Positions 1,792 through 10,665 of a stretch of DNA of 13,818 nucleotides are shown piece after piece. The stretch spans positions 1 to 13,818 of the forward strand of contig JAMWDA010000001.1 in the NCBI GenBank assembly GCA_023818995.1. Reading direction: 5' to 3'. Position 1 is the first letter of the stretch. Every line of letters starts with the position of its first letter. This DNA is from Candidatus Omnitrophota bacterium (lineage in GTDB: Bacteria; Omnitrophota; Gorgyraeia; Duberdicusellales; 4484-171). A program made the translations under genes and the position numbers. Below the pieces are notes generated by a model that ran no database searches, was not told the DNA's origin, and was given only the letters and a program-made list of their open reading frames with translations.

Positions 1792-2181
1792 TTATGGAAC
1801 TCCTGCTAAAGTTTTTGGAACTATAGAAAAATTAAAGAAACGATAAAAATAGGAAGCTAAGAAAGGAGTCTTTATATTATTTTTATTACGATAATTATCA
1901 TTCAACCTATGAGAAGAATCTTTATTTAGAGCTAAAACCATCTTTTCTTTAGCAAAATCAAAATTTTGCTTTTCTACCCACAAGTTTATTTTATTTAACG
2001 ATACTCTTTTATAGAAATGGTAACGGATGTCATCTAAAGTATGGACTAGCTCATTATATATTTTGCGATTATAATTTAACTTGTAAGCTTCTACATATAT
2101 ATTTATTTTCTGATGAAGATAAAAAAAAGAAAACAAAAACAAGAATACTATTCCGATTAATTTCTTAACCATAAACTTCAC
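1792..2181 (-). CDS. ftsL: FtsL-like small bitopic division protein
   Basis: The 129-residue product has a short basic N-terminus, one membrane helix (about residues 8-22) and a polar outer segment of about 105 residues that could form the coiled coil typical of FtsL/DivIC. FtsL is a scaffold that joins FtsB and FtsQ and helps activate the septal synthase FtsWI. Sequence conservation in this family is very low, so the call rests on size, topology and position between rsmH and ftsI. The start is a GTG whose GTGA overlaps the rsmH stop by 4 bases, a coupling arrangement; an ATG three codons later (2172-2170) is the alternative. The C-terminal 40 residues (from about 90, rich in Asn, Tyr and Phe) extend beyond a minimal FtsL and I cannot assign them. 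Confidence 0.72.
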   Translation of the reverse strand: MKFMVKKLIGIVFLFLFSFFYLHQKINIYVEAYKLNYNRKIYNELVHTLDDIRYHFYKRVSLNKINLWVEKQNFDFAKEKMVLALNKDSSHRLNDNYRNKNNIKTPFLASYFYRFFNFSIVPKTLAGVP

Positions 2182-3068
2182 AACTTTTCCGCAATCCTTA
2201 GTTTAGCTGAACGAGAAGAACTATTTACGGTTAGTTCTTCCTCAGAAGGCATCAAGGGCTTATTGTTAAGGATTTTCACTTCACCTTTCAAGGAAAACTC
2301 TCTTAAGGTATGTTTTACTATCCTATCTTCTAAGGAATGAAAAGAAATAACTCCTACTCTACCACCTTTAGATAGACGGGTAATTGCTTTTTTTAAACCT
2401 ATTTCTAATGAATCTAACTCTCTGTTAACTACTATACGCAGGGCTTGAAAAACTTTTGTAGCAGGATGTATACGATTACTCCCTAAATAAGAAACCGCTT
2501 CAGAAACAATACTACTAAGCTGGTAAGTAGTGGTTATAGGAGCATCTCTTCTTTTCTCTACTACTCTTTGAGCTATGCGTTTAGCAAATCTTTCCTCTCC
2601 AAATTTTTTAAAAATCTTATTCAATTCGTACTCACTTAAATAGTTAAGAAGGTCGGAAGCACATAAAAAAGCTGTTCTATCCATACGCATATCTAAAGGA
2701 CCATCTTTAGAGAAACTAAAACCTCTTTGAGAATCAGACAACTGATAACTAGATATACCCAAATCAAAAAAGAAAATATCTGCTTTTTCTATTCCTAATT
2801 GTTCTAAAACTAAATCTAAATTTTTAAAATCTTCCTTAAAAAGTTTATAACGAGGAAAATAACAGCTAAGTCTATCTTTTGCTACTTTAAGAGATTCACC
2901 ATCTTTATCTATACCGATAAGAAAGGCATCTTTATCTAATACCTCAAAGAATTTAGAAGCGTGAGAAGCAACCCCCACAGTGCAATCTACTATTATCTTC
3001 CTGTTTTTTAAAGATAACCATTCTATTACTTCTTTATACATTACAGGGTAATGTTCTCTTATCATCAT
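2178..3068 (-). CDS. rsmH: 16S rRNA m4C1402 N4-methyltransferase RsmH (MraW)
   Basis: RsmH methylates N4 of C1402 in the decoding centre of 16S rRNA using S-adenosylmethionine. The 296 residues cover the whole family, from HYPVMYKEV at the start to the SRSAKLRIAEKL tail (285-296). Clear motifs are DLGISSYQLS (102-111), RGFSF followed by KDGPLDMRMD (115-130), HPATKVFQALRI (201-212) and ISFHSLEDRIVK (241-252). The glycine-rich SAM loop is unusual: the family pattern DxTxGxGGHS reads DCTVGVASHA here (28-37), so both adjacent glycines are replaced. The start is ATGATG; the first ATG has GAGGGG about 8 bases upstream. That ATG overlaps by 4 bases the TGA ending the un-interrupted mraZ frame. Downstream it overlaps ftsL by 4 bases. 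Confidence 0.95.
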   Translation of the reverse strand: MMIREHYPVMYKEVIEWLSLKNRKIIVDCTVGVASHASKFFEVLDKDAFLIGIDKDGESLKVAKDRLSCYFPRYKLFKEDFKNLDLVLEQLGIEKADIFFFDLGISSYQLSDSQRGFSFSKDGPLDMRMDRTAFLCASDLLNYLSEYELNKIFKKFGEERFAKRIAQRVVEKRRDAPITTTYQLSSIVSEAVSYLGSNRIHPATKVFQALRIVVNRELDSLEIGLKKAITRLSKGGRVGVISFHSLEDRIVKHTLREFSLKGEVKILNNKPLMPSEEELTVNSSSRSAKLRIAEKL

Positions 3069-3145
3069 TCAATTAACCCCTCGGCAATATCTTCAAAATT
3101 TTTTCTATTATCATTATAAAAATTTTCCCAACGCTGTTCATCTTA
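3065..3145 (-). other. In-frame mraZ C-terminal coding remnant beyond a TAA
   Basis: Directly after the TAA at 3145-3143 the mraZ frame stays open for 25 codons (3142-3068) and ends at TGA 3067-3065. The encoded tail starts DEQRWENFYND and ends FEDIAEGLIE. It lines up with the normal MraZ C-terminus, where B. subtilis has a tryptophan followed by a helix with Trp, a run of charged residues and F-x-x-I-A-E. The TAA sits exactly at that tryptophan. With one sense codon in place of TAA the protein would be 144 residues, the usual family length. The TGA overlaps the rsmH ATG as ATGA, the normal coupled junction. The tail therefore has the marks of real coding sequence. Confidence 0.8.
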
Positions 3146-3499
3146 AATCTCTATCCTATACGAGACTCCTATTATTACTATATCCTTTTTAATTCCTGCA
3201 AACTCCTTCAAATATAAAGGTAAGGTTATTCTCCCCTGAGAGTCAGGAGATACTTCTAATGCTCCACTAAAATATATACGATTAAATACTCTCGCTTGCT
3301 GTTTAGTAATAGAGAAAGACTTTAGTTTTTCTTCCAATCCTCTCCATACATCTTCCGAGAAAATAAATAAACAGCCATCTAATCCACGAGTTATATAAAA
3401 ATTACTGATTTTTCTTTCTCTAATCTTTTCACGGAATTTAGCAGGAAGGACAAATCTATCTTTTACATCTAAAGAGTGTGTATATTCCCCATACCACAT
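3143..3499 (-). CDS. mraZ: MraZ, cell division cluster regulator, shortened by a stop codon
   Basis: MraZ is an AbrB-fold DNA-binding protein that represses its own dcw operon. The 118 residues start MWYGEYTHSLD, as expected for the family, and hold both AbrB-like repeats, each with its DxxxR signature: DVKDR at 11-15 and DSQGR at 86-90. The frame ends at TAA after GVSYRIEI, about 26 residues short of the usual 143-152. The missing C-terminal helix is still encoded in frame after the stop (3142-3068). A short product would keep both DNA-binding repeats but lose the last helix. The ATG lies about 25 bases after the inferred transcription start, and the three GTGG repeats cover its leader, so DNA binding could block both transcription and the weak ribosome site. 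It may be a pseudogene in the making, a readthrough gene or a sequence error. Confidence 0.88.
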   Translation of the reverse strand: MWYGEYTHSLDVKDRFVLPAKFREKIRERKISNFYITRGLDGCLFIFSEDVWRGLEEKLKSFSITKQQARVFNRIYFSGALEVSPDSQGRITLPLYLKEFAGIKKDIVIIGVSYRIEI

Positions 3500-3500
3500 A

Positions 3501-3530
3501 CCACTTTATTCCACTTTACTCCACAATGAT
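3501..3530 (-). promoter_or_regulatory. Probable MraZ-box operator: three 10-bp direct repeats
   Basis: On the minus strand this stretch is ATCATTGTGG, AGTAAAGTGG, AATAAAGTGG, three tandem 10-bp units all ending in GTGG, the last two sharing AAAGTGG. A further GTGG (3497-3494) lies inside the mraZ start. Known MraZ sites are short G-rich direct repeats with 10-bp spacing upstream of mraZ (TGGGN units in E. coli, AAAGTG-type boxes in Mollicutes), and this array has the same pitch and position. It begins right after the -10 box and covers the inferred transcription start and the mraZ leader. Autoregulation by MraZ is the natural reading; that the protein binds here is inferred. Confidence 0.8.
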
Positions 3531-3559
3531 AATATAATACTCCCTAAAAATATTGTCAA
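3531..3559 (-). promoter_or_regulatory. Sigma70-type promoter of the mraZ/dcw operon
   Basis: The minus strand has a perfect -35 TTGACA (3559-3554), a 17-bp spacer and a -10 TATATT (3536-3531). A run of seven A (3568-3562) lies just upstream of the -35 box and could act as an UP element. Transcription should begin near 3524-3526, giving a leader of about 25 bases before the mraZ ATG. This is the best promoter in the window. Confidence 0.85.
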
Positions 3560-9370: not shown

Positions 9371-10665
9371 ACTCTATTCTTACCCTCCTGTTTAGCTCGA
9401 TAAAGACATCTATCAGCAGAAATAATTAATTCTTGGCTATCTTTACCATCTTTAGGATACATAGCTAACCCTAAAGAAACAGTGAAATGTATCTCTTTCC
9501 TCCGAAAGCCAACTATACAATTATTCACATCTTTTCTTATCTTCTCAGCAATATTTTTAATCTCTTTTCTATTAGCCTCCACTATCAAAAAAATAAATTC
9601 CTCTCCTCCCCAACGCGCAACTATATTGCCAGAATTGCCTACATTTTTCTCTAATATATTAGCTATTCTCTTTATAACCAAATCACCAACAGTATGGCCG
9701 TAGGTATCGTTTATCTTCTTGAAATCATCTATATCTAAAATACCAATACCAAAGTAAGAATTATTCAAAGATGCCCTCTTAATCTCCTCTTCCATACGCT
9801 CAATAAAGTAATTTCTTAAAAATAAGTTTGTTAAAGGGTCTGTTATAGCTAATTCTTTTATTTTACTAAATAGATTTGCCTTTTCCAAAACAACCGCTCC
9901 TAAATCACAGATAACTCTTAAGACACGAGAATCTTCTAAAAAAAATAAATTTGCTTGCTTACTTTCCACTCTCACTACACCTAAAACTTTCTCCCCAACG
10001 GATAAAGGACTACTTATAATTGCACGCACATTTCTCTCCTTATAAGCAGGTATATTTGAGGGATCGAATCGATAATCGTTCAATAAATCTTCTATAAATA
10101 AACATCTGTTATTCTTTAGAACCCACCAATCTAAAATATCACCTTTTTTTTCTTTAATTATTTCTCCATCTTTTTTAACAGAATTATTAAGTAAAAGTAA
10201 ATCTTTATCTCTATAAAAAAGAAAAAGTAAAATATTATCTGCTTCTTTAAATACTTCTGATAAACCGGTAACGATCTTCTCAGAAGCTTCCTCTGGTTCA
10301 ATCAAATCTATCAAGCTTTGAACAATCTTATTTACAGCAAATATTCTTTTTGCTTTGGGGGGTAAATCTTTTAAAATACTATTATTTCTCTTCAATTCCT
10401 CTTCTAAAATATTAATCCTTTCCTGAAGTTCTTCCATTATGGTTTTGTATTTTCTAATTTCTTTGTTTGATAATTGTACTGTCAGATAGAAAAAAAATGA
10501 ACCTATGGAAACCACGGCGATAAAAAATTCAACATCTATTTTTTTAGGATAAAAAAAAAAGAAGGAAATAAAAAGAAAGAGAGAAAAAGAAATTATATGG
10601 GAATAATTCTTATACAATCGTCTCTTCTGTAGAAGGATCAAAAAAATGAACCTTCTCCATATCAA
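9358..10665 (-). CDS. GAF-GGDEF diguanylate cyclase, two membrane helices, no inhibitory site
   Basis: This protein of up to 435 residues has two membrane helices (about 24-39 and 46-65), a coiled coil (about 66-97), a GAF-like sensor domain (about 105-262) and a GGDEF domain (about 268-435). The active loop is GGEEF at 353-357, with DPLTNLFLRNYF and DIDDFKKINDTYGH, so catalysis is expected. At the place of the RxxD inhibitory site it has NSGN (344-347), so product inhibition is probably lost. The GAF suggests control by a small ligand. The start is uncertain: the TTG at 10665 has GAGG 6 bases upstream but overlaps the ABC gene by 56 bases. TTG codons at 10641 and 10617 (8-base overlap) are alternatives and would only trim the N-terminus. 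The gene lies just before its paralogue. Confidence 0.88.
   Translation of the reverse strand: MIWRRFIFLILLQKRRLYKNYSHIISFSLFLFISFFFFYPKKIDVEFFIAVVSIGSFFFYLTVQLSNKEIRKYKTIMEELQERINILEEELKRNNSILKDLPPKAKRIFAVNKIVQSLIDLIEPEEASEKIVTGLSEVFKEADNILLFLFYRDKDLLLLNNSVKKDGEIIKEKKGDILDWWVLKNNRCLFIEDLLNDYRFDPSNIPAYKERNVRAIISSPLSVGEKVLGVVRVESKQANLFFLEDSRVLRVICDLGAVVLEKANLFSKIKELAITDPLTNLFLRNYFIERMEEEIKRASLNNSYFGIGILDIDDFKKINDTYGHTVGDLVIKRIANILEKNVGNSGNIVARWGGEEFIFLIVEANRKEIKNIAEKIRKDVNNCIVGFRRKEIHFTVSLGLAMYPKDGKDSQELIISADRCLYRAKQEGKNRVCFT

Follow-up and report, generated by a model that had tools for sequence, protein, structure and literature searches.

RESULTS

The mraZ locus and its interrupted frame

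The window, that is, the whole stretch of DNA analysed here, spans bases 1–13,818 of contig C139 (32,245 bases) and belongs to a metagenome-assembled genome (G000) of 1.58 Mb, distributed over 222 contigs and 91.8% complete. Directly past the window, positions 13819–13828 of the contig are occupied by 10 N, reflecting either masked bases or a gap in the scaffold. Among named relatives, the ten nearest (61–93% identity) are all Candidatus Omnitrophota metagenome genomes. The mraZ gene is encoded on the minus strand, at 3499–3143 when counted from its ATG to an in-frame TAA. Judging from the order of the open reading frames, it heads a cluster, with repeat boxes upstream and, downstream, a gene that we take to be rsmH on the basis of its family and the gene order. 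The features of the locus are as follows.

3531–3559, minus strand: sigma-70-like pair TTGACA, 17 nt, TATATT, with 11 of 12 matches (sequence scan)
3500–3524, minus strand: three GTGG boxes with a 10-bp period, immediately before the mraZ ATG; probable MraZ operator (resemblance to Mollicutes repeats)
3146–3499, minus strand: body of mraZ, 118 codons, first repeat whole and second repeat cut short (PF02381, TIGR00242 and omega)
3143–3145, minus strand: TAA replacing the Trp119 codon TGG (translation, codon and protein comparison)
3068–3142, minus strand: 25 open codons past the stop, encoding the usual last MraZ helix (24 of 25 residues identical in the same-genus relative G001)
3077–3082, minus strand: GAGGGG, likely rsmH ribosome-binding site, inside the mraZ tail (by eye; identical in G001)
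3065–3067, minus strand: ancestral mraZ stop TGA, in ATGA overlap with the rsmH ATG at 3068–3066 (TGA also in G001)
2178–3068, minus strand: presumed rsmH (mraW), the next gene of the cluster (open reading frame)

Translated from 3499 to 3065, the minus strand gives ...GVSYRIEI, a stop, DEQRWENFYNDNRKNFEDIAEGLIE and a second stop, so that 118 codons are followed by TAA (3145–3143), 25 sense codons (3142–3068) and TGA (3067–3065). This is the arrangement that an earlier note on this DNA had described, although without stating the strand, and the stop is a real feature of this assembly. The other 14 genes of the window end in 8 TAA, 5 TGA and 1 TAG, and the open runs past their stops extend over 0 to 25 codons, the longest being that of ftsI, which is cut by the contig end. 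Since an open run of 25 codons is by itself unremarkable, it is the sequence of the tail that identifies it as real. An independent start within the tail was also sought, but 3068–3142 holds no in-frame ATG, GTG or TTG.

Among the genomes compared, the stop is seen in one only

The closest comparator is G001 (record JAMWBQ010000025.1), the only other genome of the genus compared, which is 92.6% identical over 14.9 kb; with a coverage of only 1.2 it is a thin comparator, and its TGG agrees with the other relatives read. Indeed, TGG stands at codon 119 in 29/29 relatives read codon by codon, G001 included, these being the best relatives among the 53 matching genomes (G000 itself included) of 58 searched. 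In the search rows, which cover the remaining 23 matching genomes as well, internal stops were confined to G000 and a short second piece in G013. The earlier note had proposed an alignment of mraZ from close relatives; no relative in this comparison shares the TAA. At the protein level (120 matches listed of 870, the window's own among them), the column of the stop holds Trp in all 119 other listed proteins (143–160 aa), none of which is truncated. Class-wide, an mraZ match was obtained in 348 of 384 genomes, and among the matches listed an internal stop was seen only in G000. The MraZ of the window falls into a protein cluster whose 2 member sequences lie on 1 contig.

These comparisons bear out the statement of the earlier note that TAA takes the place of the usual tryptophan and that two changes separate it from TGG: between the G001 codon and that of the window, two neighbouring bases have each gone from G to A. 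The codons one change away from TAA that the note had listed as possible parents (TAT, TAC, CAA, AAA, GAA, TCA and TTA) are moot, because the relatives have TGG. As direct paths from TGG to TAA pass via TAG or TGA, both of which are stops, we infer that either a first stop codon persisted until the second base changed or both bases changed together; in the latter case the event would read as CC to TT on the other strand.

Family assignment and predicted structure

The 118-aa form scores 87.9 bits against Pfam PF02381, in 2 stretches (cut-off 23), and 102.6 against the NCBI model TIGR00242 (cut-off 98.35), the latter score rising to 127.0 when the tail is read through. Together with the identity of 24 of the 25 tail residues to those of G001, this rise shows that the tail encodes, as the earlier note had stated, the C-terminus normally found in MraZ. 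In the structural model of the read-through form (pLDDT 85.9), residues 115–120 are predicted to form the last strand and residues 121–143 a helix, while the model of the 118-residue form (pLDDT 84.0) keeps the rest of the fold. The latter matches 16 chains with E up to 0.001, all of them MraZ or UPF0040, and the TM scores to Mycoplasma genitalium MraZ (9qlg_A), normalized by query length, are 0.87 for the short and 0.79 for the read-through form. A literature search found no paper on the M. genitalium MraZ cryo-EM structures. The 118-aa frame thus lacks a full second repeat with its Trp and C-terminal helix, which would exist only on readthrough of the stop. According to PMC7761207, MraZ forms a repeat-binding octameric ring. 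The models are of single chains, so that any effect of the lost helix on the oligomer is putative.

Upstream region

The GTGG boxes resemble the AAAGTG[T/G] repeats that are reported to constitute the MraZ site in Mollicutes (PMC8475190), and by this analogy they are probably the MraZ operator. In G001 the first of the three boxes reads ATGG, not GTGG. Among the 29 relatives, boxes in register number three in 18, two in 7 and one in 4, as counted with a loose pattern and with no chance control. Throughout the order, mraZ has an operator-like GTGG array of 10-bp period ahead of it, and the boxes seem to run into the first codons (ATGTGG). Sigma-70-like sites in the scanned stretch (2 found versus 3.2 expected in shuffles) were no more numerous than in shuffled sequence, and their number is consequently not evidence. 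The promoter-like pair, the operator-like repeats and the body of the gene all look intact, as would be expected of an mraZ that is freshly altered and not decayed. The gene would thus probably have retained its candidate operator while encoding a protein without the last helix.

Constraint on the body and the tail

In comparison with G001, the body of mraZ carries 8 nonsynonymous and 18 synonymous differences (pairwise omega 0.097). Decay of the whole gene was considered and rejected on the strength of this value, since the body does not differ in constraint from the other 14 genes of the window (Fisher p 0.54). The tail carries 1 nonsynonymous and 2 synonymous differences, giving an omega of 0.079 based on 3 differences only. 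Under a model with equal branches and a mean dS of 0.26, a tail free of constraint over the whole G000 branch would be expected to have acquired about 8 nonsynonymous changes (P(≤1) = 0.002), and for a tail free over half of that branch the probability of at most one such change is 0.06. The divergence of the tail is therefore compatible with a stop dating from roughly the last half of the branch, and readthrough is not required to account for it, but the tail alone does not separate recency from readthrough. The absence of excess amino-acid change in body and tail likewise fits a recent event and also a tail that is still in use.

The one amino-acid change in the tail is K121E, at a position occupied by Lys or Arg in 113/119 homologs and by Glu in none of the 119. 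Just before the stop, D114Y affects a site that is Asp in 105/119 homologs and Tyr in 0/119. The two substitutions point mildly to relaxed constraint near the break, or else to a local error.

DISCUSSION

Origin of the stop

Of the three options raised in the earlier note, a nonsense mutation is the one best supported. Programmed readthrough of the TAA, which would yield a short and a long MraZ, might seem attractive in view of a tail that is open, nearly unchanged and ends at the ancestral stop, and the RNA past the stop folds slightly better than shuffled versions (z −1.86), although an equal or better fold is reached by 14 of 200 shuffles. However, a stop found in this genome alone is not a shared, programmed signal, and we have rejected readthrough as the leading idea because the stop occurs in no relative examined. 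The context, TAA-G, is no known leaky signal; according to PMC5289835, bacterial genes with high expression prefer TAA as their stop, and the documented leaky context is UGA-C. The replacement of a nearly always basic residue by Glu at position 121 likewise speaks against readthrough, and the likely rsmH ribosome-binding site, lying where the tail ends, would preserve some of the tail even if it were untranslated. Among the papers listed in searches on MraZ with premature stop or readthrough, titles and abstract openings make no mention of MraZ readthrough. Altogether, readthrough appears very unlikely. Decoding of TAA as an amino acid, through an altered code or a suppressor tRNA, has only the open tail in its favour and can be given virtually no credence, since the 14 other window genes, eight of which stop at TAA, all have their stops placed as in G001. 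As regards both of these proposals, ARAGORN detected no stop-reading anticodon in the 39 stretches holding the 40 tRNA hits of this 91.8% complete genome, although the tRNA set looks incomplete (no tRNA was found for Phe and some other codons).

The third option of the earlier note was a sequence error: the true genome would have Trp, and the TAA would be an artefact of a fragmented metagenome assembly whose consensus is poor or mixed at this point. The stop does come from a single genome in 222 contigs, and Y114, the stop at 119 and E121, all absent from G001 and from the 119 homologs, are bunched within 8 codons (P ~0.006 for three random codons of 144, a post hoc figure). Moreover, other assemblies of the class also contain damaged mraZ genes. 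When 12 genomes with weak or multiple mraZ matches were re-examined, five (G271, G265, G134, G253 and G122) had the gene cut by contig ends, two (G013 and G264) had a frame broken away from contig ends, one of them at a run of A, and the remaining five had a full-length copy. Against an error stands the requirement that two adjacent bases must both be wrong, as well as the comparison of the other 14 window genes with G001: each stops where its G001 counterpart does, with no internal stop in the latter, and the only two length differences inside called open reading frames (6557 and 8404) are small and lie ahead of the next ATG of the respective genes. As for a mutation cluster, considered as a sign of error, it was rejected, its density and kind being ordinary apart from the post hoc run of three residues: the density of differences is not unusual (P 0.98), and 8-codon runs with at least 4 changed bases, all in nonsynonymous codons, are common in this comparison, numbering 68 of 4419 and occurring in 11 of 15 genes. 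An error is thus weakened as an explanation and seems unlikely, without being negligible.

In the family relative G013 (contig C4, about 9728–10155, minus strand), mraZ is frameshifted near codon 124 in an A run, and the shifted frame continues into rsmH for a total of 455 codons, which may reflect a homopolymer error or a real fusion. In the class relative G264 (contig C43, 24491–24947, minus strand), mraZ matches in two pieces (residues 1–45 and 59–143) with 67 bases between them, which puts them in different frames; no contig end is close by. In four Omnitrophota genomes (G020:C94, G290:C20, G368:C97 and G237:C4), very long open frames of 3395 to 9333 codons contain stretches with a weak resemblance to MraZ (E 3.8e-11 to 9.3e-4).

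We consider it likely that an ordinary, recent nonsense mutation specific to this lineage has shortened MraZ to 118 residues and removed the last helix. The Trp119 codon would have been converted by G-to-A changes at two adjacent bases, either one after the other or in tandem, on the G000 branch, after the split from the nearest sampled relative. Provided that the DNA is correct and the short protein is produced, ribosomes would end after residue 118, yielding a product with the first repeat and most of the second. Such an MraZ may be partly or wholly inactive, given that the helix probably aids subunit packing in the ring-shaped assembly. The persistence of the tail could then be ascribed to the recency of the change and to the likely rsmH ribosome-binding site at its end, and residues seen in none of the 119 homologs, flanking the stop at positions 114 and 121, would be expected if constraint had been relaxed there. 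On the other hand, for a recent event two adjacent changes are less likely than one.

A truncation of this kind is plausible insofar as loss of mraZ is tolerated elsewhere. It has no apparent phenotype in E. coli (PMC8475190), and some multicellular, longitudinally dividing Neisseriaceae have naturally lost the gene (PMC9395523). Within the class, an mraZ match is absent from 10 of 221 good genomes, some of which may have assembly gaps. When E. coli was evolved in the long-term experiment, an IS150 insertion near the C-terminus was the commonest mraZ allele and may, in the view of the authors, modulate MraZ activity (PMC4301190). The slower growth of M. genitalium without mraZ (PMC8475190) counts against a truncation. 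It is conceivable, though we regard it as rather doubtful, that the 118-residue protein has been kept as a working altered regulator that would bind the intact GTGG operator, assemble differently and shift expression of the division cluster in this lineage.

If real, the allele would be a natural case of a very widespread cell-division regulator losing its C-terminal end, and it could be of use in working out the role of the last helix; coming from a single metagenome-assembled genome, this one allele has little weight by itself. A genuine two-form MraZ would be of greater consequence, but it is disfavoured by the comparative evidence.

Comparison with known systems

By its sequence profiles, its fold, its place before rsmH and the operator-like repeats upstream, the window gene resembles the rest of the MraZ family; it differs from its relatives in that the frame ends at 118 residues, without their Trp-Asp-x-x-x-Trp helix. 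As in the E. coli IS150 allele described in PMC4301190, the C-terminal end of MraZ is disturbed and the rest is left, but there the cause is an insertion sequence in a laboratory population, whereas here it is two base changes in an uncultured lineage. The situation is also reminiscent of the Neisseriaceae, as reported in PMC9395523, in that mraZ function would be diminished or absent in a single lineage, the rest of the group retaining it; in those bacteria, however, the gene is gone, while in the present genome nearly all of it remains.
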